This document shows, in pieces, positions 1,575-30,191 of a stretch of 32,650 bases of DNA (the stretch's first letter is position 1; every line of letters starts with the position of its first letter). The translations under genes and the position numbers were made by a program. Origin of the DNA: Bacteroidales bacterium. Its GTDB lineage: Bacteria > Bacteroidota > Bacteroidia > Bacteroidales > FEN-979. The stretch covers positions 1 through 32,650 of the forward strand of contig JADHVQ010000018.1 in the NCBI GenBank assembly GCA_016783905.1, in the 5' to 3' direction. Under the pieces are notes generated by a model. The model worked only from the letters and a program-made list of their open reading frames with translations. It did no database searches and had not been told where the DNA came from.

Positions 1575-4500
1575 ATGGAAAAAGCCAGAAAATTTGGTGC
1601 GTTCGCAGGTGTCTTCACCCCATCGTTACTGACGATCCTCGGGGTGATCATGTACATGCGCCTGGGTTGGGTTGTGGGGCAGGCCGGACTGATCACAGCC
1701 CTGATGATCATTGTGCTTGCACACGTGATCTCTGTTTCAACGGGTCTCAGCATCTCCTCCATTGCCACCGACAAAAAAATCAAAGCAGGTGGGATCTACT
1801 ACATCCTATCCCGCAGTTTGGGCTTACCTATCGGAGGAGCCATCGGGATTACCCTCTTTATCGGAACCGCCCTGAGCATTTCCCTCTACCTTGTTGGATT
1901 TGCTGAGAGCTTCCTTGCCATAGACGCCATCCGGAACTTTACCGGCCTGGAACAAAATGTCATGGGATTCCGGATCGTTGGTACGGTTGCCATTGTAATC
2001 CTGGTGATCATCGCTTTCATCAGTACCTCGGTAGCCATCAAAACCCAGTTCTACATCATGGGTGCGATCGGGTTGTCGCTGGTCTCTATCTTCATCGGCT
2101 TTTTTGTAAATGATGAATTTTCGTCCAGCGCCATCACTCTCTCTTACCTCAAAGACGGGATCTCTCCCGAGATCGTTTTCGCTATCTTCTTCCCGGCCGT
2201 AACCGGATTCACTGCCGGGGTGGCCATGTCGGGGGACCTGAAGGACCCCAAAAAGACCATTCCGCGTGGGACACTCGCAGCTATCGGTTGCGGTTTTATC
2301 ATCTACGTCGCGCTGGCGGTTGGCTTAGCCCTGTTTGTCGACCGGGAGTTGTTACTGACTGACTACAACTTCCTGATGAAGGTGGCCTGGTTCTCACCTC
2401 TGGTGATCGCCGGCATCTGGGGAGCTACTCTATCTTCAGCGCTGGGGGGCATCCTGGGCGGCCCCCGGATCCTGCAAGCGATCTCCTCCGACCAGATCAC
2501 ACCGAAGATCTTTGCCCGGGGATATGGGGCTTCCAATGAACCACGAAACGCCCTGCTGCTCATCTTTCTCATCGCTGAAGCCGGCATCCTGATAGGAGAG
2601 CTGGATGTGATAGCCGGAATTGTGACCATGTTTTACCTGGCCTCATACGGTTTTATCAACATCGCCTTCTTCCTGGAGAACTGGGCCAGTACCGATTTCC
2701 GTCCCTCCTTCCGGGTGAATCGTTACATCGGCTTGATCGGCTTCATCGCCGCTTTCGGCGTGATGTTCAAGCTGGATATGCTCTCGATGTTTGCTGCCTT
2801 CATCATCATGGGTCTGCTTTACTTCTTCCTGAAACGGAAACAACTCAAATCAGATTATGGGGATGTATGGCAAAGCGTCTATTCATCGCTGGTAAGATCA
2901 GCTTTACACCGAATGAGCAAAAGCACATTAGAACAACGGAACTGGCAGCCTAACATCGTACTTTTCAGCGGCGGCACTGAGAAACGGCCTCACCTTATTG
3001 AATTCGGGAAATGCCTGGTAGGACGACACGGTGTTCTTTCCAATTTCGACCTGATTGAAAAGAAAGATGCGAAGGTACTATTTCCCAAATCCCAGGAGAA
3101 TATCACTGCGGAGAAGGCGGAGACCGGGGTTTTCACCCGAAGGAAAACGGTCAGGGACCTTTACGACGGAATCGAAACTATTTCCAGTGTTTACGGTTTC
3201 TCCGGTTTTGAGCCTAATACCGTGGTGATGGGGTGGGCACGGGAGACGCAACAACCAGAACGGTTCGCCGGGATGCTGATATCTCTTTACGAACTTGACC
3301 TCAATGTGCTGCTTCTGGATTACGACAAACGGACCGGTTTCGGGAAATACAAAACGATTGATATCTGGTGGAAGGATATCAGCAACCAGGGGAACCTGGC
3401 ACTGTCTCTGTGCAAACTGCTGCTGCTTTCAGATCACTGGCAAGAGGCCCGGATCCGTTTGATGATTGTCAATTCCCTGACCGAGCACCAGGATCATATC
3501 ATTACTGAAGCGGAAGAGCTGCTCGATTCCCTGCGGATCAACGCCTCGGTGAAAGTAATCGATAATCACATCGAACAACAACCGTTTTACGAAATCGTGC
3601 TGGCAGAATCCCGTAATACCGACCTGGTCATCACCGGCATCCCGGAGATAGAGAAGGGGAAAGAGGCCGAATACATTGAGACTACCAACCACCTCCTTCA
3701 CCAGATTGGTACTGTTCTCCTAATCAAGGCTTCATCCACATTCAAAAAACTAAACCTGAAAGTGGATACACAACAATACAAATACATCACCGAGACATCT
3801 AACGTTCAACCACTCAAAACGATGAATATCCCGTTACCAGTTGATTCGCTACCGGAAAAGATTCCGGATGAGCTGAAAGAGGCATATGCGTCATGTTCAC
3901 AACTAATTCAACATTTTCACAAAGAATACATTCTTCAAGCATTCAAATTCAATAGTAATAAGGTTCTTGCCCTGGAGAAAAATATCTTCGGATCATTTCA
4001 GATCATTGAATCTGAACAGTTCCTGAACGCTCCCCGCGAAAAGCAAAGCAGACAACTCTCTTTACTGAAAACGAACCAGTTGATCTTAACGGAGAAAATT
4101 GTCCAGGAGCTACAGAAGGCAATCAATACAAACCAGCGGGAAAGGCTGAACAAGGGATTGAATTTCCTTCTTGACGGGATCAGTCAGGTAGTGCAGGATG
4201 CGCCGGTCAGGATCACCAGTAAACTTTATGCAAACCATCTCGAAGCCAATAAAGATGATACCATCTCCGCCAGGGTATATAAGCGGCTGACACGCTGGTT
4301 CAGGTCTGACAGGAAAGTAGCACAGGGAGTTCCATATGCGGTACGGTTCCAACGTCTCCTCAGGGAATACCTGCCCGAAGCATTCTACAAAAAACTGGAG
4401 GATGCTCTCAGCCAGCTCTGGCAGGTGAATGTAAGCACCATCGAAGAGTTTCACCGGTATCTGAACACCTGGCAGAGATATCTTCTTCTCTTTGAGCAAC

Positions 4501-6773
4501 GTGACATTACTCCGGAACTGCTGGCCACTGCAAAAAAGGAGATCTCAGAATCCATTGTCAGGCTGAAGAAGCTCACTGACGATGCGGAAGAGATCCTTTC
4601 CTCGCGCCTGCTTGAAGGTGTTACAGAGCTATTCACCGGCATCAGTAAACTCATCGATTCGGGACCAGTCAACCTGAACCTCAGGCATAAGGATGACGTC
4701 TACATCAAACGTATCCAAAAAATATTTGCACTCTTTCCTGATCGATGGTCTTCAAACAGGATCCTCCTGTATAACGGAATCATCCTTTCGATCCGACTCA
4801 AATTATTTACCGGCAGGCTCCGGAAGATCATTGAACGTACCCTTGCTGAGATCAGACAGTTGACCGAAGACCGGATCATCCGGCAGACAGCGATCCTGAA
4901 TACCCGTTTAGGTGAATACCTGGAAGAGCTTCAAAAAGATCCCTCCGGAGAATTTAACCTGAACGAACATGAACTGGAATGGGATGACAGGACCAATTAT
5001 CAGTTGAGTCTGGACCGGATCATCGATAAATCGTTCATCGGGATAAAAACGCTGATCAACAAACTGCCTGAACAAACCGAGCTGATCTATCCGGGAGCGG
5101 TGAAGCAACCCGTTGATCTGCTCAGGGGAGAGCCTGGATCCCTCTCCGTTTCAGTCTATCAACTTGTTGATTATCACGTGCAAAGTCAGCTTTTTGAGTC
5201 GCTGCAATGGTCCCGTGAAACACTTCCGGTTGTGATCTTCACTGCCGCATCCAGGATCAGGAATTCCCTTCGTCTGGTCAGTATCGGGAACATCAATCCG
5301 GAGGCGAAAAGCAGTCTGGAAATGGTGCTGCGGGAAGATGATGTCGCGGGCATGTCGCCGGGATGGGAAGGATTCGTTACGTTTGTTTCGGAACAGCGTT
5401 TTATCGTGGAAGATGAGATGAAAAGCATCCGGGAAGCATTGAACCATCTGCAGCGGGAACTGGAATACAAGATGAACCAGACGGCTGACGAACTGACGGT
5501 GGCAGGTCTTCTTAAAACGCCTGACGTTTACAAACAGTATACCAGGAAACGGGAAACCCATAAGAAGATGTCGTTGCTCAGGAGCTCGATGCAATCGGTA
5601 AAACAGAAGTTGAACAGATTCAGTGCCGGCATCTGGTACAAGCAAAGCGACGCCTTCCTGCTGGCGAAAAAGATCAGCCGGGGGGAAGGGAAACAGCGGT
5701 CGGTTGTTGATTCCCTGCTGACATTATACGAAGGGGTAACCCCTAAAGAAGAGGCCTTAAACCGGTTGCCATTTTATTACCGCCAGCTTTTCCTGCAGAA
5801 GTACAACTTCAAATCGGAATTCTGGGTGAACCGGCAAAAAGAGATCGACCTGATGCAGAAAGCCATTGCACGGTATAAAAACGGATTCTCCGGCGGTATT
5901 CTGATCCGTGGAGAACGCAATGCAGGTAAGACCTTCTTCATTAACTACATCGCTGTCAACCTCTATCCCTCGCATCCGGTATATGCGCTCAATTCTCCCT
6001 CCGCCGGCTCCGCTGATCCGGAGGTGTTCATGAACATCCTGCGTGAAAGTACCGGTGTGGAAGGAACAGCTGATTCCATTTTCGCCACGCTGAAAGATGG
6101 TTCTCTCATTGTCATCGATGATCTTGAACTCTGGTGGGAGAAATCAGAAAGAGGAACGGCTGTGGTGGAGCTGATCGGTGAACTGATCCGCAAATACGGG
6201 CACAAATGCCTATTCATCCTGACGGTCTCCCACAACAGCTTCCAGATCATAAACCAGATCACAGGGATTGAATCCTGTTTCCTGTCGGTGGTAGACCTCC
6301 AGCCCTTTAATGCCCTCGCCATCCGGAAAGTGCTGATGTTCCGCCATCATACCAGCGGTATGGATATCCGCCGGTCAGACAAGCACAACTCCCGGCTTTC
6401 CCGAACGGCCCAGGCAAAACTCTTTGCCCGCTATTTCACCTATACAAAAGGCAATATTGGCGCTGCATTGCTTGCATGGATCGCAAACATCACCGATGTC
6501 CGGGAGAACACCCTGTTCATCCGGCAGCCACAACTCCCCGATCATACGATGCTGCAGAGACTCCCTCCCGGATTGAAGATCTACCTGTTGCAGTTCGTCC
6601 TGCATAAAAGGCTGGACCTCCCAAAATTGCAAAGGGTGACCAGGGATGCTCCTGAAGTGGTTGAAAAACAGATCCAGTTCATGAAACGTACCGGATTGAT
6701 CAACGAGCGGGCAGGTCAGGTTTTTGAACTGAACCGGTACCTGTATGTGCTCATGAAAGATATCGTTCAATAA
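1575..6773 (+). CDS. SLC12-type cation-chloride cotransporter fused to a P-loop ATPase
   Basis: A 1732-residue protein with at least three parts. Residues 1 to about 420 are a membrane domain with the SLC12/APC signature (FTPSLLTILGVIMYMRLGW, GGIYYILSRSLG, FAES). Residues about 420-735 match the cytosolic C-terminal domain of SLC12 transporters, including NTVVMGW and IDIWWKD at 595-601. Residues about 735-1395 are polar, predicted helical and not recognised. Residues about 1396-1732 form an AAA/STAND-like ATPase: Walker A GERNAGKT at 1446-1453, a Walker B-like segment LIVIDDLE near 1511-1518, and a probable winged-helix end. Bacterial SLC12 homologues are usually much shorter and lack an ATPase. 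The likely role is ion or amino-acid symport controlled by the cytosolic modules; substrate and direction cannot be told. The downstream MscS gene suggests osmotic control. There is no internal stop across 5.2 kb, so the fusion appears real in this sequence. Confidence 0.85.
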   Translation: MEKARKFGAFAGVFTPSLLTILGVIMYMRLGWVVGQAGLITALMIIVLAHVISVSTGLSISSIATDKKIKAGGIYYILSRSLGLPIGGAIGITLFIGTALSISLYLVGFAESFLAIDAIRNFTGLEQNVMGFRIVGTVAIVILVIIAFISTSVAIKTQFYIMGAIGLSLVSIFIGFFVNDEFSSSAITLSYLKDGISPEIVFAIFFPAVTGFTAGVAMSGDLKDPKKTIPRGTLAAIGCGFIIYVALAVGLALFVDRELLLTDYNFLMKVAWFSPLVIAGIWGATLSSALGGILGGPRILQAISSDQITPKIFARGYGASNEPRNALLLIFLIAEAGILIGELDVIAGIVTMFYLASYGFINIAFFLENWASTDFRPSFRVNRYIGLIGFIAAFGVMFKLDMLSMFAAFIIMGLLYFFLKRKQLKSDYGDVWQSVYSSLVRSALHRMSKSTLEQRNWQPNIVLFSGGTEKRPHLIEFGKCLVGRHGVLSNFDLIEKKDAKVLFPKSQENITAEKAETGVFTRRKTVRDLYDGIETISSVYGFSGFEPNTVVMGWARETQQPERFAGMLISLYELDLNVLLLDYDKRTGFGKYKTIDIWWKDISNQGNLALSLCKLLLLSDHWQEARIRLMIVNSLTEHQDHIITEAEELLDSLRINASVKVIDNHIEQQPFYEIVLAESRNTDLVITGIPEIEKGKEAEYIETTNHLLHQIGTVLLIKASSTFKKLNLKVDTQQYKYITETSNVQPLKTMNIPLPVDSLPEKIPDELKEAYASCSQLIQHFHKEYILQAFKFNSNKVLALEKNIFGSFQIIESEQFLNAPREKQSRQLSLLKTNQLILTEKIVQELQKAINTNQRERLNKGLNFLLDGISQVVQDAPVRITSKLYANHLEANKDDTISARVYKRLTRWFRSDRKVAQGVPYAVRFQRLLREYLPEAFYKKLEDALSQLWQVNVSTIEEFHRYLNTWQRYLLLFEQRDITPELLATAKKEISESIVRLKKLTDDAEEILSSRLLEGVTELFTGISKLIDSGPVNLNLRHKDDVYIKRIQKIFALFPDRWSSNRILLYNGIILSIRLKLFTGRLRKIIERTLAEIRQLTEDRIIRQTAILNTRLGEYLEELQKDPSGEFNLNEHELEWDDRTNYQLSLDRIIDKSFIGIKTLINKLPEQTELIYPGAVKQPVDLLRGEPGSLSVSVYQLVDYHVQSQLFESLQWSRETLPVVIFTAASRIRNSLRLVSIGNINPEAKSSLEMVLREDDVAGMSPGWEGFVTFVSEQRFIVEDEMKSIREALNHLQRELEYKMNQTADELTVAGLLKTPDVYKQYTRKRETHKKMSLLRSSMQSVKQKLNRFSAGIWYKQSDAFLLAKKISRGEGKQRSVVDSLLTLYEGVTPKEEALNRLPFYYRQLFLQKYNFKSEFWVNRQKEIDLMQKAIARYKNGFSGGILIRGERNAGKTFFINYIAVNLYPSHPVYALNSPSAGSADPEVFMNILRESTGVEGTADSIFATLKDGSLIVIDDLELWWEKSERGTAVVELIGELIRKYGHKCLFILTVSHNSFQIINQITGIESCFLSVVDLQPFNALAIRKVLMFRHHTSGMDIRRSDKHNSRLSRTAQAKLFARYFTYTKGNIGAALLAWIANITDVRENTLFIRQPQLPDHTMLQRLPPGLKIYLLQFVLHKRLDLPKLQRVTRDAPEVVEKQIQFMKRTGLINERAGQVFELNRYLYVLMKDIVQ

Positions 6774-8156: not shown

Positions 8157-8990
8157 CTAAAATTCATCCGGTAATGTATTCAGCTCCTCATAGGTGAACA
8201 CCGGGCCATCTTTGCACACATAGGTACTGCCGATATTGCAGCGGCCGCATTTTCCCAGTCCACATTGCATCTTCATCTCCAGGGTTGTGATTACATCTTT
8301 GGGGGCAAATCCAAGTTTATCGAGCGACATGAGTGTGTATTTGATCATGATCGGTGGCCCGCATGTGATGACTTTCGTGTTTTCCACCTTTGGTTTAACA
8401 ACCTCTTCCAGAATCTTCGGGACCACTCCTACATGTTCTTTCCAGGTATCCTCCGGTTTATCGATGGTAAGGATCATCTGAAGTGATTCATTGTTCTTCC
8501 ACTCTTCTAACTCCTCTTTGTAACAAAGATCAGCAGAAGTACGGGCTCCGTAAAGAATGGTGAAATCCGCATAATCGCTGCGGTTATCAATAGCGTACTG
8601 GATCAGTGAGCGTAATGGAGCCAGTCCGATTCCTCCCCCGACAAACAGCAGGTTTTTTCCTTTCAGGTCTTTCAGTGGGAACCAGTTTCCATAGGGTCCC
8701 CTGATTCCCACTTCATCCCCTTCATCCAGATCACGATGGATGTCGGCGGTTACAATCCCTGCACGTTTGATAGAGCAATCGAAGGCGCCTTTCCTTGTAG
8801 CCGATGAGGCAATGCAAAAGGTGCACTCTCCACTGCCAAGCAAAGAGAACTCTACAAACTGTCCGGGCATCCAGTTAAATTGCTCTGTCAATGATTCCTC
8901 CCTGAATTTCAACCGGTAGGTCCTGATATCCGGTGTCTCCTGGATGATCTTATCGATCGTACAGATCATGGGGACTAATAGTTGTTCCAT
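8157..8990 (-). CDS. flxA: FlxA-like FAD/NAD(P)H oxidoreductase subunit
   Basis: A 277-residue flavoprotein of the ferredoxin-NADP reductase fold and probable NAD(H)-reactive subunit of the Flx-Hdr complex. It has an N-terminal FAD-binding barrel (MPGQFVEFSL, GIRGPYGNWF), a nucleotide-binding domain with GGGIGLAPLRS at 118-128 and CGPP at 210-213, and a C-terminal [2Fe-2S] site with Cys 243, 248, 251 and 259, as in PyrK/AsrB-type proteins. It is the last gene of the hdrCBA-flxDCBA operon, separated from flxB by 108 bp filled with octamer repeats. In D. vulgaris FlxA is the NADH-oxidising subunit. The family assignment is strong; NADH versus NADPH preference is inferred from that homologue. 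Confidence 0.88.
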   Translation of the reverse strand: MEQLLVPMICTIDKIIQETPDIRTYRLKFREESLTEQFNWMPGQFVEFSLLGSGECTFCIASSATRKGAFDCSIKRAGIVTADIHRDLDEGDEVGIRGPYGNWFPLKDLKGKNLLFVGGGIGLAPLRSLIQYAIDNRSDYADFTILYGARTSADLCYKEELEEWKNNESLQMILTIDKPEDTWKEHVGVVPKILEEVVKPKVENTKVITCGPPIMIKYTLMSLDKLGFAPKDVITTLEMKMQCGLGKCGRCNIGSTYVCKDGPVFTYEELNTLPDEF

Positions 8991-9001
8991 ATTCTTAAAT
9001 A

Positions 9002-9025
9002 GTGAAATGGTGAAATGGTGAAAAT
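9002..9025 (+). repeat. three-copy octamer tract gtgaaatg
   Basis: Two exact copies of gtgaaatg and one variant (gtgaaaat) lie in tandem just upstream of the flxA start, inside the operon. It is a second 8-bp periodic tract next to the larger one at 9061-9108. Confidence 0.7.
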
Positions 9026-9060
9026 ATGTTTCATATTATTCTGCATTACTACATTGATTC

Positions 9061-9108
9061 ATTCCTGCATTCCTGCATTCCTGCATTCTTGCATTCCTTC
9101 ATTCCTGC
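9061..9108 (+). repeat. six-copy octamer tract attcctgc
   Basis: Six tandem 8-bp units: attcctgc three times, attcttgc, attccttc, attcctgc. They fill the flxB/flxA gap and run into the end of flxB. The minus strand reads GCAGGAAT repeats. Related copies lie near 31869 and at the window end (32628-32650), in the opposite orientation. Confidence 0.9.
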
Positions 9109-10148
9109 ATTGTATTTACAACCTTATTTACTACCTCAAAAATACTGATGTTTACCGGGCAGGAGATGGTGCACTTGCCGCAGCCAATGCAGAGATTCAC
9201 CCCGAACCGCTCCTTGTAATAGACAAACTTATGCATAGATCGCTGGCGCCAGCGACGGTATTTCACCGGCCTGGGATTGTGCCCTCCTGCCATCAGGGTG
9301 AAATAGACGTTGTTACAGGAGTCGTAACTCTTGTACCTGACGCCTTTGTCCCTGATCTTCTCATCCGAAATTTTGAAACAGTGGCAGGTGGGGCAGACGA
9401 ATGCACAGGTGTTGCAGCTGACACAGTTGGAAGAGACCTCTTCAAAAGCAGGCGAATCAAACTTGTCCTGCATCTTTTCGTTGATCTCTTTGTAATCCAT
9501 CGATAACCGGAAAGATCCGGCAAATTTGTCGTACTGTTTTTTCATCTCCTCCTTTGCAGCGCCATTGGCTGCGGAGAGTCCTTTGTTATTCTCCTTCAGG
9601 AAATTTTTCCCTTTCTCCGTGCGTGCCTGAAGATAAACCTTGCCGTCACCCACATGGATCACCGCTACATCCATGGCATCCAGGTTTTCCACATCGTAAT
9701 CGAGGGAGGTACAGAAACAATGGGTTACTGCCTGATCACAACGGGGAGAGATGAGGATGGTGTTCTCCCGTCTTTTCTCATAATCGGTATCGATGTAGTC
9801 CCATTTGTAAACAGCATCCAATACCTGAAGTCCCCGTGCATCGCAATGCTTGACACCCAGTACGACCCGTTTCCCGGCCAGCGGATCCTCCGTGGTATCG
9901 CTGAGCTCCGTTCCCTCGCTGGTGGCTGTGTATTTCATCACCTTCGCCGACTTGGGAAAAAAGAGGGATTTTACACTCATCGTTTGCGGAATCGGAGAAT
10001 CCGGATCGCATCCGGCAAGCGAATCCACTTTTTTGAAATCGTACTTGCCAAATTTCTCTACCGGCGCATAGGTCTCATGCGCGTTGATGATCGCCTCATA
10101 AAACGCCTGGAGTCCGGCTGAATCAGTACTGTATGTTGTCAGGTTCAT
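9099..10148 (-). CDS. flxB: FlxB-like iron-sulfur subunit (AsrA/hydrogenase beta-like)
   Basis: A 349-residue electron-transfer protein of the family that includes anaerobic sulfite reductase subunit A. The N-terminal part carries GVKHCDARGLQVLD around 98-111, typical of that family. The C-terminal part has a ferredoxin-like pair of clusters: Cys 242, 245, 248 and 252 (CVSCNTCAFVCP, with extra Cys at 255 and 257) and Cys 320, 323, 326 and 330 (CIGCGKCTISCP). It lies between the other Fe-S subunit and flxA, with 14 bp to the upstream gene, and probably relays electrons between FlxA and the Hdr module. The last residues (MQE) and the stop codon are contributed by the octamer repeat. The B and C names follow operon order and could be swapped. 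Confidence 0.8.
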   Translation of the reverse strand: MNLTTYSTDSAGLQAFYEAIINAHETYAPVEKFGKYDFKKVDSLAGCDPDSPIPQTMSVKSLFFPKSAKVMKYTATSEGTELSDTTEDPLAGKRVVLGVKHCDARGLQVLDAVYKWDYIDTDYEKRRENTILISPRCDQAVTHCFCTSLDYDVENLDAMDVAVIHVGDGKVYLQARTEKGKNFLKENNKGLSAANGAAKEEMKKQYDKFAGSFRLSMDYKEINEKMQDKFDSPAFEEVSSNCVSCNTCAFVCPTCHCFKISDEKIRDKGVRYKSYDSCNNVYFTLMAGGHNPRPVKYRRWRQRSMHKFVYYKERFGVNLCIGCGKCTISCPVNISIFEVVNKVVNTMQE

Positions 10149-10162
10149 CGTTCAGAAATGCA

Positions 10163-11014
10163 TTACATGATAAAATCGTCAGGGTCACTCATACTGTATT
10201 TGTAAAAGGCTCCCCGGTCGCCTTCAATCATCCCGGCCTGGTGTTCCTGGAAGTTTTCGTAGACCACTTTCTCATTCTGCTTATGCAACAGGTGCAGAGG
10301 CAAGTGACTGGGGCAGGCTTTTTCGCAGTTGCGGCAATCCACACAACGCCCGGCCAGGTGCAGCGACCAGGTCATCAGTGCATGGAATGCGCTGGAGGTG
10401 GTGTTGGCGCCATGATAGAGCGTAGAGGTCTCCTGGTCTATGCAACACTTGTCACAGTAACAGAGCGGACAGGAGTGACGGCAGGCGTTGCAGCGGATGC
10501 AGTTTTCGAACACCTCTTCAAAGTATGTCAACCGTTCGGTCAGTTCCTTCCCATCCAATTCGCGGATGTCGGCATTCACCTGGTACTCCCGCTTTCCTGA
10601 TGGTGTCCCCAGCATCTCGTCAAACACAACCGAATCGGGCATTACGCATTCAAGGCAGTTCTGTGCCTTTTGACCGGCCTCATCCACCACCCCTTCACAG
10701 GCAATCCCGACGATGTAGAGGTTTTCCCGTTTTACCTGGTTCTCAGTGAGCATCAGGTTCAGGGCGCGACTGTCGCACCCCTTGACCACCAATCCAACCC
10801 GTTTATTGCGGGTATGCTCGTACTTCAGGTAGTTGGTGAGATTAAAAACCGATTTTTCGGTAAAAACGAGTTGATCCACATCCTGGTAGTGATGGATCAG
10901 CACCGGTACCTGGTTTTCATCAAAGCCCGAATTGCGGTAACCGATGAATACATCGATCTTCTCCTCAGAGAAGAGCTTACCCGCAATCTCCTTAATTTGC
11001 TTTGTATAGTCCAT
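10163..11014 (-). CDS. flxC: FlxC-like iron-sulfur subunit
   Basis: A 283-residue electron-transfer protein. A front domain contains VGLVVKGCDSRALNL (about 73-87) and CEGVV, as in F420-hydrogenase/formate dehydrogenase beta-like proteins. Two ferredoxin-type clusters follow: Cys 172, 175, 178 and 182 with more Cys at 185, 187, 190 and 191, then Cys 224, 227, 230 and 234 (CVDCRNCEKACP). The Cys-rich PLCYCDKCC stretch parallels the PTCHCF stretch of the neighbouring FlxB-like protein, so the two subunits look related. It starts 5 bp after flxD and ends 14 bp before flxB, so it is surely co-transcribed. A specific role as FlxC is inferred from gene order and family. Confidence 0.8.
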   Translation of the reverse strand: MDYTKQIKEIAGKLFSEEKIDVFIGYRNSGFDENQVPVLIHHYQDVDQLVFTEKSVFNLTNYLKYEHTRNKRVGLVVKGCDSRALNLMLTENQVKRENLYIVGIACEGVVDEAGQKAQNCLECVMPDSVVFDEMLGTPSGKREYQVNADIRELDGKELTERLTYFEEVFENCIRCNACRHSCPLCYCDKCCIDQETSTLYHGANTTSSAFHALMTWSLHLAGRCVDCRNCEKACPSHLPLHLLHKQNEKVVYENFQEHQAGMIEGDRGAFYKYSMSDPDDFIM

Positions 11015-11019
11015 GTTTA

Positions 11020-11499
11020 TTAGCTATTTTCCTTTTTGTAGAGACGCAGTGGCCCCAGTTTTTTGATATCCTCCGTAACCTTGGCAACCACGTTGGCGAA
11101 TTTCTGTCCCTCGGCTGCCGATACCCACGAGAACTGGACACGATCCTCATGATAACCCACGAAATTCAACAGTTTCTTGGTGACCAGGAACCGGCGGCGG
11201 GCATAGTAATTCCCGGAGATGTAGTGGCAGTCCCCGGGATGGCAACCCGATACCAGGACCCCGTCGGCTGTGGTTTGCAACGATTTAATGATGAACCATG
11301 GGTCCACGCGGCTTGAACAGGGAATCCGGATGATCCGGATGTTAGGCGGATACTGGATCCGGCTGGTCCCTGTCAGGTCAGAACCTGCGTAGGAACACCA
11401 GTTGCAGAGGATCCCCATGATCACAGGCTGCCAGTCGGGCGGAGCCTCCAGGTGGGGTTTCTCGATGCTGACAATTTTCTCTATTACTTCTGTTTCCAT
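11020..11499 (-). CDS. flxD: FlxD, MvhD/FlpD-type [2Fe-2S] electron-transfer subunit
   Basis: A 159-residue member of the MvhD family, which passes electrons into HdrA in methanogens and in Flx-Hdr complexes. The five family cysteines are visible: Cys 32 and 35 (CNWCSYAGSD), Cys 61 (RIPCSSRVD), and Cys 86 and 91 (GCHPGDCHY). The length is typical. The start codon overlaps the hdrA stop by one base (TGATG), implying translational coupling and a tight HdrA-FlxD partnership. Assignment to the family is firm. Confidence 0.9.
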   Translation of the reverse strand: METEVIEKIVSIEKPHLEAPPDWQPVIMGILCNWCSYAGSDLTGTSRIQYPPNIRIIRIPCSSRVDPWFIIKSLQTTADGVLVSGCHPGDCHYISGNYYARRRFLVTKKLLNFVGYHEDRVQFSWVSAAEGQKFANVVAKVTEDIKKLGPLRLYKKENS

Positions 11500-13472
11500 C
11501 AGATGGCAACTATCTCGTTAATGATTTGCATATCGGTAAATCCGGCCAGGTCGATGGCCATGCTGCGGCAGATGGCTACACAGGATCCACAACCCTGGCA
11601 TACGCCTTCGTTGATCTTGGCAACCGTTCGAAGCTCCTTGAATCCATATCCCAACGGGATCTCTTCGGTTACAATAGCCTGGTAAGGGCATACGTTGACA
11701 CAGTTCTGGCAGCCGGTACAGAACTCGTTGTTGACATGGGCGATCATCGGATCCTTTTTCATGGTATCCCCGGCAAAGAGCCCGCACACCTTCGCAGCGG
11801 TGGCTGAAGCCTGTGCAACCGAATCAGGGATGTCCTTCGGAGCCTGGGTACAACCTGCCAGGAATATGCCGGCTTTGGCCGTTTCCACCGGACGGAGTTT
11901 CGGGTGGGCTTCGGAGAGGAATCCATATTTGTCGTAAGAGATCCCTAGCAATCGCGCCAGGTCGGGATTGTCTTTGTAAGGATATATAGCGGTGGCCAGA
12001 ACCACCAGGTCAGCCTCCACTTCAACCACTTGTCCGATCTGAGCATCCTCTCCCTGCACCATCAGCTTATCTCCCTTCTTGTAAATCTTCGATGCCCTGC
12101 CCCGGAGATAGGTAGCACCGGTTTCAACCTGGGCCCGTTTCACAAACTCTTCATACCCTTTTCCTGCTGCTCGTATATCCATGTAGAAGACATACGCATG
12201 CGAGTCTTGCACTTTGTGATGCAGCAGGAGGGTATGCTTGGCAGTATACATGCAGCAGATCTTGGAGCAATATTCGATCCCCTTGGCCTCGTCGCGGGAG
12301 CCCACGCATTGGATAAAAACAACGTTTTTGGGCACCTTTCCGTCTGAGGGGCGAACCGGCACGCCACCGGTAGGACCGTTGGCAGAGACCATCCGTTCAA
12401 ACTCCAGCGAGTTGATGATGTCTTTAAACCGGCCTACGCCATACTCTTCGTATGGTTTCGGGTCCCAGAGATCGTATCCCGTAGCCACCACCACGGCGCC
12501 GATTTCCCGTTCCACAATTTCATCCTGCATGGTGTAATCGATCGAACCCTTTTCACACACCTTGGCACAGATCCCGCACTTGCCCTTGATCAGCATAGTA
12601 CAATGTTCGGCATCAATGACCGGTTTGTTGGGAACGGCTTGCGGGAAGGGGCTATAGATCGCTTTCCGCTTGTCGATGCCCATGTTGAATTCGTTGGGAA
12701 CCTTTACCGGGCATTTCAGCCAGCAGGCGCCACAACCGGTACAGGTATCGAAGTTGACGTAAGAGGCTTTCCGTTTGATCTTTGCCTTGTAATTCCCCAC
12801 ATAGCCATCCAGTTCTATTACTTCAGAATAGGGTAGCAATTCAATGAATGGATGGCTGGCCACATCCACCATTTTTGGAGTAAGAATACACTGGGAACAG
12901 TCGAGTGTGGGGAAGGTCTCATCTAGCTGGGCCATCTTTCCTCCGATGGATGGACTCTTTTCCACAAGCACCACAGGGATCCGGGCATCGGCTATGTCGA
13001 GGGCAGCTTGAATGCCGGCAATCCCCCCTCCTATCACAAGAGCCCGTTTGGTAACCGGAACCGAAATCTCGTGTAGCTGTTCATTGGCGATCGATTTGGC
13101 TACCGCCATCCTGATCAGGTCACTTGATTTCCCGGTGGCTGCTTTTTTATTTTTCTGATGAACCCAGGAGGAGTGCTCCCGGATGTTTGCTACCTCCAGT
13201 AAATAGGGATTCATCCCTGCATCGGAGAGTGCTTTCCGGAAGGTCTTCTCATGCATACGGGGGGAGCAGGCGGCCACGACCACTGATGTCAGCCTTTGTT
13301 GTACAATGGCATCCCGAATCATCTGCTGGCCTGGATCGGAGCACACGTATTTGTAATCTATGGCATATTTGACCTCTTTGATCTTTTTTGCCTCTTCCAC
13401 TACAGCCGGAACATCAACAAAGTCCCCGATGTTTGCACCGCAAAAACAAACAAAAACACCTACACGAGCCAT
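11499..13472 (-). CDS. hdrA: HdrA, FAD iron-sulfur core subunit of heterodisulfide reductase
   Basis: A 657-residue flavo-iron-sulfur protein, the likely electron-bifurcating centre of the complex. The N-terminal domain has CFCGANIGD (Cys 9, 11). The FAD Rossmann motif VIGGGIAGI lies at about 147-155, followed by GGKMAQLDETFPTLDCSQC (Cys 192, 195), a hallmark of HdrA. An inserted ferredoxin motif is at Cys 244, 247, 250 and 254. Two C-terminal [4Fe-4S] motifs follow, FCTGCQNCVNVCP and VCQGCGSCVAICR. It has cysteine rather than selenocysteine throughout. It overlaps hdrB (TAATG) and flxD (TGATG) by one base each. The length matches the HdrA group found in bacterial flx clusters. Confidence 0.93.
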   Translation of the reverse strand: MARVGVFVCFCGANIGDFVDVPAVVEEAKKIKEVKYAIDYKYVCSDPGQQMIRDAIVQQRLTSVVVAACSPRMHEKTFRKALSDAGMNPYLLEVANIREHSSWVHQKNKKAATGKSSDLIRMAVAKSIANEQLHEISVPVTKRALVIGGGIAGIQAALDIADARIPVVLVEKSPSIGGKMAQLDETFPTLDCSQCILTPKMVDVASHPFIELLPYSEVIELDGYVGNYKAKIKRKASYVNFDTCTGCGACWLKCPVKVPNEFNMGIDKRKAIYSPFPQAVPNKPVIDAEHCTMLIKGKCGICAKVCEKGSIDYTMQDEIVEREIGAVVVATGYDLWDPKPYEEYGVGRFKDIINSLEFERMVSANGPTGGVPVRPSDGKVPKNVVFIQCVGSRDEAKGIEYCSKICCMYTAKHTLLLHHKVQDSHAYVFYMDIRAAGKGYEEFVKRAQVETGATYLRGRASKIYKKGDKLMVQGEDAQIGQVVEVEADLVVLATAIYPYKDNPDLARLLGISYDKYGFLSEAHPKLRPVETAKAGIFLAGCTQAPKDIPDSVAQASATAAKVCGLFAGDTMKKDPMIAHVNNEFCTGCQNCVNVCPYQAIVTEEIPLGYGFKELRTVAKINEGVCQGCGSCVAICRSMAIDLAGFTDMQIINEIVAI

Positions 13473-14416
13473 TATTCTACCTCACTTTCTGCTGTGACAG
13501 CTTTTTTGGGTTTTTTCTTCTCTTCAGGAGTTTCAATCTCTTCCCCGATGTGAGCCAGTGCCGGTTCAATCGGGATGATATGTTTCGCGGGCATCAAATC
13601 CTTCATAGGATATCCGAATGCCAGCGCCATCAGTTGGGTGATATAAAGGATCGGGATCTCATATTTTTTACCTGCTCTCTTTTCAATATCCGGCTGCCGC
13701 ATGTCGAGGTTCGACTGACACAGTGGGCAGGCTACAACAATTGCATGTGCTCCGCTCTCTTTGGCCATCTCCAGGATGGTTCCGCTGAGTGACAGGACGA
13801 TTTCCGTGTCGCTGATGGAGAAGGAAGCTCCGCAACATTCGGTTTTGAAATCGAAAGCGGTGGGTGTGGCGCCAAGCGCTTCCATGATCCGGTCCATCGA
13901 CATCGGATATTCCGGTGAATCAAACTGGGTGACGTTTTTCGGGCGGGTCAGCAGGCATCCATAATAGCAGGCGATTTTCAGCCCTTTCAACGGATAGGTT
14001 ACCTTTTCGGCAATGGCATCTGTTCCGATGTCCTCATAGAAAAACTGAAGCATTGATTTCACATCCACATCGCCATGGTATTCGCCCTCTTCCACGATGG
14101 TGGAGTTGATCTTTTTAGCCAGTTCCGGATGGCTGTCCATCTCCACCTTGGTGCTTTTCATCCGTGAATAACAGGAAGCACATGCAATGCCCATCGTTTT
14201 ATTGGGCAACCGCTCAGCCAGCACCAGGTTTCTCAAGGGGAGCGCCAGAGCAAAATTCTCGGTCATCACATGGGCAGAGGTGGCGCCGCAACAGTTCCAG
14301 TCGGGCAACTCCTCCATTTCCACATCCAGGGATTTCATCACCAGTTTCAGGGTACTATCGAACTCTTCACTGGTCCCGTGTGCCGAGCAACCCGGAAAAT
14401 AGGTCAGTTTTGTCAT
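13472..14416 (-). CDS. hdrB: HdrB, disulfide-reducing subunit with two CCG domains
   Basis: A 314-residue catalytic subunit expected to bind two noncubane [4Fe-4S] clusters, which cleave a disulfide in HdrB. Both CCG domains have their cysteines: Cys 10, 42, 43, 79 and 82 (PGCS, NCCG, CASC), and Cys 150, 154, 194, 195, 230 and 233 (YYGC, ECCG, CPLC). A short charged tail (about 300-314, KKKPKK then acidic) extends beyond the usual core. The gene starts 8 bp after hdrC and overlaps hdrA. The physiological disulfide is unknown here: DsrC is the proposed partner in sulfate reducers, and none is encoded in this window. Confidence 0.92.
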   Translation of the reverse strand: MTKLTYFPGCSAHGTSEEFDSTLKLVMKSLDVEMEELPDWNCCGATSAHVMTENFALALPLRNLVLAERLPNKTMGIACASCYSRMKSTKVEMDSHPELAKKINSTIVEEGEYHGDVDVKSMLQFFYEDIGTDAIAEKVTYPLKGLKIACYYGCLLTRPKNVTQFDSPEYPMSMDRIMEALGATPTAFDFKTECCGASFSISDTEIVLSLSGTILEMAKESGAHAIVVACPLCQSNLDMRQPDIEKRAGKKYEIPILYITQLMALAFGYPMKDLMPAKHIIPIEPALAHIGEEIETPEEKKKPKKAVTAESEVE

Positions 14417-21669: not shown

Positions 21670-23085
21670 TTAGTAGATGCCGAAGGTAAACTGATTGATG
21701 AATTCATAAACAGGGCTGTAAATGCCAATGATGACCAAACCTGCTACGCAGATTGCCAGGCCCAGGCGGGAATAGCCGTCACTCTTAAAATATTCGATCG
21801 GCTTGTCGCTCCGGTTCAGGAACATCGCTTTAACAACCAGGAGGTAGTAGTAGAGAGCGATGATCGTATTCAGCACAGCAATCAGCACCAGAATATAGAG
21901 CCCTTGTTGGGCAGCAGCCGTGAAGAGGAAGAATTTGCCGAAGAATCCTGCCACCGGCGGGATCCCGGCCAGGGAGAAAAGAGCCAGCATCATGGTGAGA
22001 CTCAGTTTGGGATTGGTCCGGTAGAGCCCGTCGTAATCATCGATGTTCTCTTTCCCGGTGCGGTTGGAAATTACCGCTACCACACCGAATGCTCCCAGGT
22101 TCGAGAAAATATAAACCAGAACAAAGTAAATTACAGTGGTCATCCCGAGCTGACTTTGTCCAATGATTCCAAGGAAGATAAAACCTGCCTGGGCGATGGA
22201 GGAAAAAGCGAGGAACCTTTTGAGATTCTGTTGGCGTAGGGCAAATAGGTTCCCGATGGTCATCGTCAGGATGGAGGTCACGTAGATCACATCCTTCCAC
22301 ATGATGGTGATTTTCGAAAATACTGTAAATAACAGGATAGTGAAGATCATCACGGCTGCTCCCTTGGATATCACCGAAAGATAAGAGGTGATATTCACAG
22401 GTGCTCCTTCGTAAACATCGGCCGTCCAGAGATGGAATGGGACAATGGAAATTTTGAAAGCCATACCGGCAAAAAAGAAGATAAATGCCAGGATCTGAAG
22501 AGGAGCGCCGTTGATGCCGTTCACTACCTCATCAAAATAGAGGGTGCCTACCGTACCATAGATCATGGAGAGACCATACAGCAGGATCCCGGAGGAGAGG
22601 GCTGAGATAAAGATCAACTTCACCCCGGCTTCAGCTGATTTTTCCTTGAACCGTTCGAAAGCCGCCAGTGCTGCCAGTGGGATCGTGGCCAGTTCAAGTC
22701 CGAGGTAGAACATCAGGAAATCACCAGAGGAGAGCATGTACTCCATCCCGATCAGGGTAGATAACAGCAACAGGAAATACTCACTGATTTTCTCCTTGTT
22801 CTCCTCTTTTTTCAACCAATCGACTGACTGCAAGAAAACGATGAACACCCCGATGGTAATGATGTTTTTCATCATCAGGGTCAGGGGTGTGGTCACGTAC
22901 ATTCCGCCAAACAGGCTTCCGGTGGGCCCTGGGATAAAACCAAGGATCATCACCGCACCAAAAAGGATGAGTGCGGGGAGAATGATCTTTCGCTTCCGGT
23001 CGGCCGGCAGGAATATCTCAACCAATAAAAGAATCACCGTGATCAGCACCAGCAGTAATTCATGTCTCATGATCAGCATCAGCAT
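21670..23085 (-). CDS. nuoN: NADH-quinone oxidoreductase subunit N
   Basis: A 471-residue antiporter-like proton-pumping subunit of the complex I membrane arm, with about 14 membrane spans. Family features include FLMFYLGLELATIPLAALAAF (conserved Glu in the middle span), AGVKLIFISALSSGILLYG, KISIVPFHLWTADVYEGAP and SLAGIPPVAGFFGKFFLF. It is the last complex I gene, 45 bp after nuoM. The length is normal. The start is the first of three nearby Met codons and could be a few residues later. Confidence 0.95.
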   Translation of the reverse strand: MLMLIMRHELLLVLITVILLLVEIFLPADRKRKIILPALILFGAVMILGFIPGPTGSLFGGMYVTTPLTLMMKNIITIGVFIVFLQSVDWLKKEENKEKISEYFLLLLSTLIGMEYMLSSGDFLMFYLGLELATIPLAALAAFERFKEKSAEAGVKLIFISALSSGILLYGLSMIYGTVGTLYFDEVVNGINGAPLQILAFIFFFAGMAFKISIVPFHLWTADVYEGAPVNITSYLSVISKGAAVMIFTILLFTVFSKITIMWKDVIYVTSILTMTIGNLFALRQQNLKRFLAFSSIAQAGFIFLGIIGQSQLGMTTVIYFVLVYIFSNLGAFGVVAVISNRTGKENIDDYDGLYRTNPKLSLTMMLALFSLAGIPPVAGFFGKFFLFTAAAQQGLYILVLIAVLNTIIALYYYLLVVKAMFLNRSDKPIEYFKSDGYSRLGLAICVAGLVIIGIYSPVYEFINQFTFGIY

Positions 23086-23130
23086 GTCGTCTGAATTTTA
23101 TATCGTCTTATACTCTTTATTTTCGTTCGA

Positions 23131-24633
23131 TTAATTCATGCCCGGGAGCAACTTTTCGATCATTGGCCCCAGTCCGTTGGTAATCATATTGGATAACCAC
23201 AAGGGTGCGATACCGATGGCCGTGATCCCGAAGATCAGGGTTCCAACACTCATCCTGTCATACCATTTGGCATCGGTTATCAGCTCATACTCTTCCTTGT
23301 TGATCTTTCCGTATAACATCATGGCGACAACCCGCAGGATATAAACAGCCGTCACAACGATGGAGGAGGCTGCAATGATGGTGGCCACCCGGTGGAAGGT
23401 ATCTGCATGCTGGAAAGCGCCGACGAAGATGGTCATCTCAGCCACAAAGCCACTGAATCCCGGAAGTCCGAGGGAGGCCAAACCGGCAATGACATAAGCC
23501 ACCGCCAGGAAGGGCATCACCTTCATCAGGCCGCTCATCTCGTTGATATATCTTGTATGGGTACGTCCATAGATCATCCCGATCAGGGCAAAGAAGAGGG
23601 CTGTCATAATTCCGTGTGAGATCATCTGCATGATCGCACCATTCATGGCCGTTTCGTTGAACATCAGGATGGCGAAAAGGACCAGACCGCAATGGCTCAC
23701 GGAGGAGTATGCATTGATGTATTTGAGGTCTTTCTGCCAGATGGCTCCCAGCGCTCCGTAGATGACACTGATGGTGGTCAGGATCAGGAAGATCCAGGCC
23801 AGCTCATGAGCGGCTGCCGGAAGCAGGAAAACGGCGACCCGGTAACATCCGTATCCCCCCAGTTTCATCAGCACACCGGCGTGAAGCATCGAAACGGCTG
23901 TGGGAGCCGAAGCATGACCATCGGGCGACCAGGTATGGAACGGAAACAAAGCTCCGAGCACTCCGAACCCGATAAACAGGAAGGGGAAGAAGAAAAGTTG
24001 GGTGTTCAGTGGAATATTCACCTTCGCAATCTCAGGGATTTCGAATGTAAGCGGACCGCCGGCCGGGTTGGAGTTGAAGTAGAGACCCAGCATTCCAACC
24101 AGGATCAACGCCGAACCTCCCATCAACATCAGGGTCAGCTTCATCGCGCTGTAATGCCTCGGACCGGTTCCCCAGATCCCGATCAGCAGGTACATGGGGA
24201 TTACCGCAACCTCGTAAAAGAGGAACATGGTAAAGAGGTCCAGCGAGATGAAAAATCCAAATACCCCTGATGACAGAAGAATCAGCGAGGTGAAAAACTC
24301 TCGCGGGAGGTCATCAACATCCCAGGAGGCAAAAATCCCTGCAAAAATCACCATGGAGGTCAGGCCAATCATGGCAACCGAAATCCCGTCGACACCAATA
24401 TAGAAATGGATGTTGAGGGTTTCATACCAGACATAATTGCTGGCAAAGAGGAACTCTGCCGTGTTTCCGGCATGCCGTTCGGCCAGGAACCATAGGATGA
24501 TGATGGCTGAAGTGATCAGCTGAAATGTCATCCCGATGGCAGAAACAACACGCACCTGCTTATTGTCCCTGGTAAACAGGATCCCGATGATGGTCAGGAT
24601 CGGAATAATGATCAATAACAGAAGTATATTCAT
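23131..24633 (-). CDS. nuoM: NADH-quinone oxidoreductase subunit M
   Basis: A 500-residue antiporter-like proton-pumping subunit. Diagnostic blocks are FYIGVDGISVAMIGLTSM, LFTMFLFYEVAVIPMYLLIG (key Glu), LFPFHTWSPDGHASAPTAVS, LKYINAYSSVSHCGLV and GLPGFSGFVAEM. It is located in the inner membrane between NuoL and NuoN in the arm. It starts 14 bp after nuoL, and the length matches the family. Confidence 0.96.
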   Translation of the reverse strand: MNILLLLIIIPILTIIGILFTRDNKQVRVVSAIGMTFQLITSAIIILWFLAERHAGNTAEFLFASNYVWYETLNIHFYIGVDGISVAMIGLTSMVIFAGIFASWDVDDLPREFFTSLILLSSGVFGFFISLDLFTMFLFYEVAVIPMYLLIGIWGTGPRHYSAMKLTLMLMGGSALILVGMLGLYFNSNPAGGPLTFEIPEIAKVNIPLNTQLFFFPFLFIGFGVLGALFPFHTWSPDGHASAPTAVSMLHAGVLMKLGGYGCYRVAVFLLPAAAHELAWIFLILTTISVIYGALGAIWQKDLKYINAYSSVSHCGLVLFAILMFNETAMNGAIMQMISHGIMTALFFALIGMIYGRTHTRYINEMSGLMKVMPFLAVAYVIAGLASLGLPGFSGFVAEMTIFVGAFQHADTFHRVATIIAASSIVVTAVYILRVVAMMLYGKINKEEYELITDAKWYDRMSVGTLIFGITAIGIAPLWLSNMITNGLGPMIEKLLPGMN

Positions 24634-24647
24634 TCGTCAGCCGTTTA

Positions 24648-26564
24648 TTAGGTCCATAAATAAATGAATACCAGGGCGAGAATCACCGCTCCGGAGACAA
24701 ATACAAGTGCGTATTGTTGCAATTGTCCCGACTGAAATCCCTTGATCCTGTCAGAGGCCTGGTTGGTAACATAAGAGATGCCGTTCATGGAGCCGTCGAC
24801 AATGTGGCGGTCGAACCATGCGATCGGTTTGGAAATATGATCAAAGATGATCTTTTGTGTAATGAACAGGTAGAGCTCATCGACATAGAATTTATGATAA
24901 GCCGCCCTGTAGAACCCATGCAAGGCGTGAGCAATTTTGCCGGGGATACCGGTTGGTTTGAGATACATGACCCAGGCTACCCCTATGCCAACTAATGCGA
25001 TGACAATAGAGGGGATAGCGATGATCCATTCGGTGTGAAGTTCAAATATATGCCTGTCGGATGTAACCAGGTGTGAGAATGGGATAAACCCGGCAAACAT
25101 CGCTCCGAAGGCCAGGAAGATCAGTGGTATCGTCATCGATTTTGGCGCCTCATGCGGAGCATGATGATAATCCTGTTTCTTTCCCCAGAATATACCAAAG
25201 TAAAGCCGGAACATATAAAATGCTGTCAGGCCGGCTACCACGTATTCAATGAGGAAAAGTGCGGTGTCGTGATGGTAAGCGGCCACCAGGATCTCATCTT
25301 TGCTGAAGAACCCTGAAAAGGGAGGGATCCCGGCAATGGCCAGGCAAGCAATTAAAAAGGTAATGTGCGTGATCGGCAGGTATTTCCGCAGTCCTCCCAT
25401 TTCATGCAGGTAATTGCTGTGAACGGCATGGATGATGGCCCCGGCACAGAGGAAGAGAAGCGCTTTAAAGAAAGCGTGGGTAAAGAGGTGGAACATCGAC
25501 GCCATGTATCCCAAACCTTCATGTCCTCCCATACCCGAAACTCCCAGCGCACACATCATATATCCGATCTGGGACATCGTAGAGTAGGCGAGCACACGCT
25601 TGATATCGTATTGAGTACAGGCGATGATCGCCGCAAAAAGGGAAGAGAAGGCCCCTACCCAGGCTACGAGCTGTAACGCTATAGGCACGGTAATATAGAT
25701 CGGGAACAAACGGGCAACCAGGTAAACACCTGCAACAACCATGGTGGCGGCGTGGATCAGTGCTGAAACCGGAGTTGGGCCCTCCATGGCATCGGGCAAC
25801 CAGATGTGGAGCGGGAACATGGCCGATTTTCCGGCTCCGCCCATGAAGATCAGGATCATCGCCCAGGTGAGGACTGACATGCCGATAAACGTAGCCGCCG
25901 GAGGGGTACCAATCGCCGGCCCGGTGGGGCTGGTCAGTGTCAGAAAGTCAAAGGTGCCGCAATAGTAAGAAAGAAGCAGGATCCCGATCAGGAATCCCAG
26001 GTCGGCGAAACGGGTAACGATAAACGCTTTTTTGGAGGCGGCAACCGCGGTGTCTCTCGTATAATAGAACCCTATCAGCAGGTAGGAGGAGACCCCTACC
26101 AGCTCCCAGAATATATACATCTGGAAGATGTTGGTGGCAACCACCAGCCCCAGCATGGCAAAGGTAAAGAGAGAGAGGAAGGCATAGTACCGCTCAAAGC
26201 CCTTTTCGCCTTTCAGGTACCCTGTGGAGTAAATGTGAGCCATCAGCGATACGGTGGTAACGACGATCAGCATCATGACCGAAATGGGATCAATAAACAC
26301 ACCCATGTCAATATGCAGCGTGTCTGTAAACCGTAGCCATAGGGTGTTATACCCTATAATCTGCTGGTATACATCATCCACCCTCCCAACAACAAAGAAA
26401 TATTTGTATGCCGTATAGATGGATAGGATCCAGGAAATAAAGAGACCTGCAGACCCAACGATCCCGGAAACTGCAGGCTTGAATTTATTACCCAAGAAAC
26501 CGATCAGGATGAAGAGGAAGAACGGTATCAGGACGATCCAGATGGTGTAAGAGAAGTCAAACAT
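24648..26564 (-). CDS. nuoL: NADH-quinone oxidoreductase subunit L
   Basis: A 638-residue distal antiporter-like subunit, including the long amphipathic lateral helix and last span at the C-terminus (about 540-638). Blocks seen: IDPISVMMLIVVTTVSLMAH, YIFWELVGVSSYLLIGFYY, SAMFPLHIWLPDAMEGPTPV, KRVLAYSTMSQIGYMMCALG and AGIPPFSGFFSKDEIL. It begins 66 bp after nuoK, across the G-rich palindrome at 26581-26627. It completes the proton-pumping set L-M-N, so the complex should pump protons (or possibly sodium). Confidence 0.96.
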   Translation of the reverse strand: MFDFSYTIWIVLIPFFLFILIGFLGNKFKPAVSGIVGSAGLFISWILSIYTAYKYFFVVGRVDDVYQQIIGYNTLWLRFTDTLHIDMGVFIDPISVMMLIVVTTVSLMAHIYSTGYLKGEKGFERYYAFLSLFTFAMLGLVVATNIFQMYIFWELVGVSSYLLIGFYYTRDTAVAASKKAFIVTRFADLGFLIGILLLSYYCGTFDFLTLTSPTGPAIGTPPAATFIGMSVLTWAMILIFMGGAGKSAMFPLHIWLPDAMEGPTPVSALIHAATMVVAGVYLVARLFPIYITVPIALQLVAWVGAFSSLFAAIIACTQYDIKRVLAYSTMSQIGYMMCALGVSGMGGHEGLGYMASMFHLFTHAFFKALLFLCAGAIIHAVHSNYLHEMGGLRKYLPITHITFLIACLAIAGIPPFSGFFSKDEILVAAYHHDTALFLIEYVVAGLTAFYMFRLYFGIFWGKKQDYHHAPHEAPKSMTIPLIFLAFGAMFAGFIPFSHLVTSDRHIFELHTEWIIAIPSIVIALVGIGVAWVMYLKPTGIPGKIAHALHGFYRAAYHKFYVDELYLFITQKIIFDHISKPIAWFDRHIVDGSMNGISYVTNQASDRIKGFQSGQLQQYALVFVSGAVILALVFIYLWT

Positions 26565-26580
26565 AAGTTTTTATTTATGA

Positions 26581-26627
26581 CCCCTCCCCTGCACCCCTCC
26601 CCTTGAGGGGAGGGGCCGGGGGTGGGG
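26581..26627. repeat. C/G-rich palindromic repeat between nuoK and nuoL
   Basis: A perfect 10-bp inverted repeat (cccctcccct tg aggggagggg, 26594-26615) is followed by ccgggggtgggg. It fills most of the only sizeable gap in the nuoJ-N part. The plus strand has four G-runs of four or more within 21 bases, a G-quadruplex pattern. It is shaped like an extragenic repeat. Confidence 0.75.
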
Positions 26628-26630
26628 TAA

Positions 26631-26948
26631 TTAATACTTCATCTCATCCATCTTCTCTACATCGATGTTGACAATGCGACGGTAGATGTTGATGATGATG
26701 GCGATTGCCACGGAAGCCTCAGCGGCAGCCACAGCGATGATGAAGATGGTAAAAAACATCCCTTCCATGTGCTCTGGAAAGAGGATCTTGTTGAATGCCA
26801 CAAAATTGATACAGACCGAGTTCAGGATCAACTCTATCGACATGAGCATGGTGATCAGATTCTTTCTCACCAGGAATCCATACACCCCCACGAAAAACAT
26901 GACGGTGGAGAGGATTAAAAACCAGGATAATGGAACTCCTTCAAACAT
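26631..26948 (-). CDS. nuoK: NADH-quinone oxidoreductase subunit K
   Basis: A 105-residue membrane subunit with three spans. The conserved acidic residues lie in LITMLMSIELILNSVCINFV (span 2) and AVAAAEASVAIAIIINIYR (span 3), both part of the central proton path. It starts 18 bp after nuoJ. The length is exactly that of the family (about 100 residues). Confidence 0.95.
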   Translation of the reverse strand: MFEGVPLSWFLILSTVMFFVGVYGFLVRKNLITMLMSIELILNSVCINFVAFNKILFPEHMEGMFFTIFIIAVAAAEASVAIAIIINIYRRIVNIDVEKMDEMKY

Positions 26949-26966
26949 AGGTTGGTACTTTAGCTG

Positions 26967-27955: not shown

Positions 27956-27959
27956 AATC

Positions 27960-29048: not shown

Positions 29049-29061
29049 ATTTATTATGGTA

Positions 29062-30189: not shown

Positions 30190-30191
30190 AC

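Follow-up and report, generated by a model that had tools for sequence, protein, structure and literature searches.

The window analysed here is a 32,650-nt stretch of a Bacteroidales genome, read on its forward strand. Near its start a single open reading frame (1575-6773, +) without stop or frameshift encodes a protein of 1732 residues in four modules: the membrane and C-terminal domains of SLC12 come first, then a stretch of about 655 residues in which long helices are duplicated, and last an AAA+ ATPase of ORC/STAND-like type that ends in a winged helix. The initial annotation had read a cotransporter, a helical region and an ATPase in one uninterrupted frame, and the open frame of 1732 codons bears this out. 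A short gene for an MscS-like protein follows on the same strand; the features of both genes are listed in Table 1. Upstream lies an aspartate 4-decarboxylase gene truncated at the contig start (2-1261); congeneric loci (L032-L034) likewise have aspartate 4-decarboxylase, together with a 566-581 aa gene, upstream of the fusion. Promoter and terminator scans gave matches at chance level only.

Table 1. Features of the fusion gene and its downstream partner (window positions).
Feature	Position	Strand	Residues and basis
SLC12 transmembrane domain	1575..2864	+	residues 1-430; Pfam PF00324, TIGR00930, NKCC1 alignment
Ser287-Ser288 (equivalent to NKCC1 Ser613-Ser614, Na+-coordinating)	2433..2438	+	alignment to NKCC1 chain 7smp
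SLC12 cytoplasmic C-terminal domain	2865..3779	+	residues 431-735; Pfam PF03522, conservation profile
Helical module	3780..5747	+	residues 736-1391; AlphaFold2 model, hhalign
ORC/STAND-like AAA+ ATPase with C-terminal winged helix	5748..6770	+	residues 1392-1732; alignments, Foldseek, VIA-align
Walker A GERNAGKT	5910..5933	+	residues 1446-1453; homologue alignment
Walker B-like IVIDDLELWWE	6108..6140	+	residues 1512-1522; core IVIDDLE, 1512-1518
Winged helix-like C-terminus	6543..6770	+	residues about 1657-1732; 1uly profile match, 1w5t structural alignment
MscS-like partner gene, 247 aa	6798..7541	+	24 bp downstream of the fusion; Pfam PF00924, model, Foldseek

The genome is a draft of 128 contigs, and an assembly or annotation artefact could in principle have united unrelated genes; the relatives make this practically impossible. 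The initial annotation had let the standing of the fusion depend on whether relatives share its domain order, and they clearly do. Dozens of independent assemblies have full-length homologues (about 1645-1760 aa) in which the modules stand in the same order, and the architecture is present in about 87 non-redundant loci from Bacteroidota metagenome-assembled genomes (MAGs), isolates and MAGs with other labels. About twenty of 149 related genomes carry the fusion, at identities down to 25-35%. A scan of named genomes, in which loci were retrieved with the full-length alignment and hence via SLC12 peptides, gave 80 loci with about 70 complete fusions, chiefly in Bacteroidales MAGs. Isolates with the fusion are Fulvivirga sp. 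M361, F. marina, Mangrovivirga halotolerans, and Marinigracilibium pacificum; it is also found in MAGs labelled Ignavibacterium, Calditrichota, Marinimicrobia, and Latescibacterota, labels that may be wrong. Purifying selection acts on each of the four modules, with pN/pS against congeners of about 0.1 for the membrane domain, 0.2 for the C-terminal domain, 0.45 for the helical module and 0.25 for the ATPase. The uninterrupted frame, the full-length homologues and the purifying selection thus exclude a join artefact near 3780 or 5760.

The N-terminal module is an SLC12 transporter. PF00324 (AA_permease) matches residues 13-431 above its cut-off (E 2e-48), PF03522 (SLC12 C-terminal domain) matches residues 592-670 (E 5e-8; 32.8 bits against a cut-off of 27), and NCBIfam TIGR00930 matches with E 5e-125, yet under that model's own curated cut-off; PDB matches are NKCC1, KCC, and NCC. 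The protein begins almost at TM1; the long regulatory domain that precedes this point in animal NKCC/KCC is missing. In an alignment to NKCC1 chain 7smp (NKCC1 numbering derived from chain offsets), Y105, P207, and T210 match the K+-site residues Y383, P496, and T499, and A284, S287, and S288 match A610, S613, and S614 of the Na+ site. The K+-site Tyr, Pro, and Thr are conserved among the fused proteins; of 97 fused sequences, 95 have serine at the first Na+-site serine position and 94 at the second, as do all 11 sampled SLC12 proteins that stand alone. KCCs have Gly or Ala at both serine positions (PMC7200160). Retention of serines that are typical of NKCC/NCC and absent from KCCs suggests that the transporter is probably Na+-coupled, despite the K-Cl in the NCBI family name. 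The initial assignment to an undifferentiated NKCC/KCC class therefore stands as to SLC12, while the Na+-site serines point to the NKCC/NCC type. The protein resembles the NKCC1/NCC branch in its membrane domain, cytoplasmic C-terminal domain and ion-site residues, and differs in its missing N-terminal domain, in about 1000 extra residues of helical scaffold and AAA+ ATPase, and in its MscS partner gene. Some SLC12-helical proteins of 1310-1345 aa are without the ATPase (L044:26-4054, L045:6074-10006, L152, L181).

The helical module follows the transporter directly. In an AlphaFold2 model (pLDDT 82.5, pTM 0.74) it consists of helices of 40-80 residues and two short strand-containing inserts. 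The module is an internal duplication, its two halves being related with an hhalign probability of 94% (3.6% for a reversed control), and it is the fastest-evolving part of the fusion. The roughly 660 residues that the initial annotation had left as unrecognised helical sequence belong to a single homologous module: hhalign relates the helical regions of SLC12-fused proteins, CPA2-fused proteins and the main standalone group with 99% probability, against about 1% for reversed controls, and detected no such homology in the smaller ATPase forms. Profile searches gave no convincing PDB relative for the helical region, and matches to the AAA+ domain took up the VIA-align list, so the helices may still have a known fold.

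The C-terminal module has an AAA+ core with a Walker A motif, followed by a winged helix, as in ORC-type proteins. Foldseek and VIA-align matches are Orc/Cdc6, RuvB, Apaf-1, and PABY2304; the best fold is 1w5t (Orc2; Z 15.9, rmsd 5.3, 320 residues, across 670-1005 of the model), and the winged helix has a profile match to 1uly (E 1e-3). These matches support the AAA/STAND-like ATPase of the initial annotation, whose intact Walker A and Walker B-like segment are also confirmed (Table 1). Gly1446, Gly1451, and Lys1452 of Walker A are invariant in 71 aligned full-length homologues, and position 1516 is Asp or Glu in 72 of the 87 SLC12-fused members. Like Orc2 1w5t, Apaf-1, and PABY2304, the module combines AAA+ core, winged helix, Walker A and a conserved G-N sensor-like motif; unlike ORC/Cdc6 AAA+ proteins and STAND NTPases, it is C-terminal and preceded by a transporter and helices. 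It also differs from STAND NTPases in that WD40, TPR or LRR sensor repeats are absent after the winged helix, where the protein ends. Pfam AAA/STAND models stay below cut-off, with AAA_16 at 17.6 against 32.6 in the window protein (1417-1470) and, in relatives, nSTAND3 at 26.7 against 27.2 and nSTAND1 at 23.2 against 27.1; hence the module is called ORC/STAND-like and is not filed as STAND.

The Walker A lysine is present in 93 of 94 transporter fusions but in only 16 of 36 other proteins that carry the module (14/34 without two contig-truncated entries). Members that stand alone without a transporter or without this lysine indicate that the module has ATP-independent uses. Covalent fusion and a conserved Walker A could also mean that the ATPase itself powers transport, so that a secondary cotransporter would have become an ATP-driven pump. 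This is very improbable: the fold is ORC/STAND-like and neither ABC nor P-type, for which reason an ABC-like pump was rejected; the Na+-coupled site residues are retained; and relatives that lack the ATPase (L152, L176, L181) still have the transporter with some of the helices.

The downstream gene encodes a protein of the MscS fold. It matches PF00924 (E 6e-10; 39.6 bits against a cut-off of 20.2), and its model (pLDDT 88) has the three TM helices, beta domain and alpha/beta domain seen in MscS, YnaI, YbiO, and MscK, which are its Foldseek matches (E 1e-11 to 1e-10). In contrast to the MscS family, partners of this kind have only about 240 aa and a TM3 without canonical Ala/Gly-rich packing. 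TM3a of the window partner is YVYIVLAILLMMLFWISRYW, which lacks the Gly/Ala-rich pore lining of a conducting channel. The alignment-based median of Ala plus Gly in 22 TM3 residues is 2 for the short partner class and 6 for partners of the standalone forms. With a TM3 that is bulky and poor in Ala and Gly, the partner keeps the MscS fold but is not filed as a conducting channel; judged by these residues it may be non-conducting, in which case "channel" would be a misnomer, and short MscS partners in general may be tension-sensing scaffolds rather than open pores.

Among 130 non-redundant loci, an MscS gene lies directly downstream of 72/87 SLC12 fusions, 6/6 CPA2 fusions and 4/4 short forms, and is adjacent on the same strand to the one fusion with another multi-TM N-terminus and to 26/32 standalone entries. 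Contig ends truncate two of the latter (L064, L066), which are in fact SLC12 fusions; this corrects the count to 24/30, and a few other standalone entries are likewise cut. The gap between fusion and MscS gene is at most 50 bp in 71 of 76 pairs and exactly -4 bp in 20. Partner-type MscS (E <= 1e-25; one 69%-complete genome with a fragment omitted) occurs in 21 of the 149 related genomes, all of them among the 22 with an ATPase-bearing fusion (Fisher 1e-24, uncorrected for phylogeny). Twelve SLC12 fusions with downstream sequence have no adjacent MscS gene. Three genomes with such a fusion (G058, G119, G112) have MscS elsewhere; one with a fusion (G140) has no close MscS partner genome-wide, and one whose fusion lacks the ATPase (G143, L045) has no MscS match genome-wide. 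As a conserved partner, the MscS-like gene makes this a system of at least two genes. The fusion by itself, which had been singled out as an undescribed system, does appear to be undescribed, but the MscS-like partner had been missed.

Other small genes recur upstream of the fusion. A gene of 170-182 aa with a lipoprotein-like signal lies directly upstream at ten loci (L035, L040, L044, L045, L121, L124, L129, L152, L176, L181), often where no MscS gene is adjacent; two copies tested had no Pfam match. In a single clade without adjacent MscS (L116, L117, L122, L123, L125, L127, L153), a conserved secreted protein of 233-249 aa that resembles an outer-membrane beta-barrel is encoded upstream.

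The helix-ATPase module is also used with transporters of other families. By profile search, 77/395 genomes of the phylum and 44/77 genomes of one family have the ATPase. At L075 (4508-13041) the module is fused to a CPA2-type antiporter (PF00999), and genes for MscS, TrkH, and TrkA follow in that order; five other loci (L058, L077, L080, L084, L090) have the CPA2 fusion, then MscS, then a large multi-TM gene. In all six a 414-aa protein with 9-12 TM helices is encoded ahead of the fusion; the L075 copy has no Pfam match. A protein of 1465 aa at L091 (7062-11459), beside MscS, TrkH, and TrkA, joins the module to a multi-TM region of about 400 residues that has no Pfam or PDB match. Smaller ATPases occur beside a CPA2 gene that is not fused to them and a short MscS-like gene (L057, L093, L101); at L104 the place of MscS is taken by a TM gene of 185 aa to which no profile matched. 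Soluble forms of about 1000 aa are found with canonical MscS, and short forms of about 430 aa with MscS. The module is thus a plug-in that is joined to or encoded with CPA2 and also stands alone with MscS.

CPA2, TrkH, and TrkA, found in operons of this module, are ion transport components that are placed under cytosolic nucleotide-binding modules. Their own regulators are Rossmann-type RCK/KTN domains, whereas the module here is AAA+. We know of no CPA2 or TrkH/TrkA system that is paired with MscS. That an antiporter of an unrelated family carries the module too suggests that ion control in a major bacterial phylum follows a general principle.

The patchy distribution (77/395 genomes) and the weak sub-threshold nSTAND matches in relatives would also fit a role in defence or cell suicide, in which a STAND-type sensor ATPase has membrane parts dissipate ion gradients upon infection; STAND/ORC-type ATPases are frequent in prokaryotic conflict systems (PMC7159879). 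Such a role is improbable. No PADLOC model matches the fusion or MscS, apart from one marginal DruC match in a distant relative, and C-terminal sensor repeats are absent. The transport residues are conserved, the MscS pairing spans families, the module travels with CPA2, TrkH, and TrkA, and congeneric full-length homologues keep their gene order.

On a firm architecture, a role of the ATPase module as a regulatory switch or in complex formation is most likely. Somewhat better than evenly supported is the specific proposal that cotransporter, AAA+ module and MscS-like protein form a modular, two-gene complex for nucleotide-switched ion and volume homeostasis. Its engine would be an NKCC/NCC-like, Na+-coupled chloride cotransporter, probably also of K+, that brings Na+, K+, and Cl- inward. 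The duplicated long-helix scaffold would link this transporter to the AAA+ nucleotide switch with its winged helix, and the short MscS-like protein most likely assembles with the helix-ATPase part, since MscS tracks that part across architectures, although genes paired in an operon need not encode proteins in contact. Binding of ATP or ADP, presumably with ATP turnover, together with membrane tension or ionic state at the MscS-like subunit, would change the scaffold such that the transporter is switched or localised, coupling salt uptake to the osmotic and energy state of the cell.

The same MscS association is seen without a transporter, in standalone forms, and without the Walker lysine (L054-L056), and the helical part, a large duplicated region, evolves fast. 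The helix-ATPase part could accordingly be a scaffold that serves mainly to assemble or position an MscS-type complex, with the transporter as membrane anchor or client and ATP binding structural rather than a signal; this is unlikely, though more credible than a role in defence. Walker A is kept in nearly all transporter fusions and the ion-site residues of the transporter are conserved, so neither part seems passive.

In animal NKCCs, kinases act on the N-terminal domain, and Trk, Ktr, and Kef are controlled by RCK domains. The proposed switch would follow a similar logic with other modules, AAA+ control standing in for the kinase-controlled N-terminal domain. Cotransporter switching is a central question in animal physiology, and this bacterial lineage seems to embed the regulator in the polypeptide itself. 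A regulator-bearing transporter paired with a relative of mechanosensitive channels is tractable, and in it salt transport may be tied to cell tension and nucleotide state.

The component families are known; no description of their combination, or of SLC12 or MscS with an ATPase/STAND fusion, was found in the open-access literature searched. Whether the system amounts to a new class of bacterial membrane complex is evenly balanced; in such a class, ion transporters that can be exchanged for one another (SLC12, CPA2, and at least one further multi-TM protein without a family match) would be coupled to an MscS-type subunit by an ORC/STAND-like AAA+ switch on a duplicated helical scaffold, which would give Bacteroidota and related phyla a general, ATP-gated control of volume and ions. 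The system suggests functions for many genes known just as permease, MscS or ATP-binding protein.

The remainder of the window includes two gene groups on the reverse strand. Genes for HdrA-like, HdrB-like, and sulfhydrogenase beta- and gamma-like subunits (8157-14416, -) may encode an NAD(P)H-linked Hdr complex, and a Nuo operon for Complex I lies at 21670-30252 (-), with NuoN, NuoL, NuoH, and NuoD recognised.
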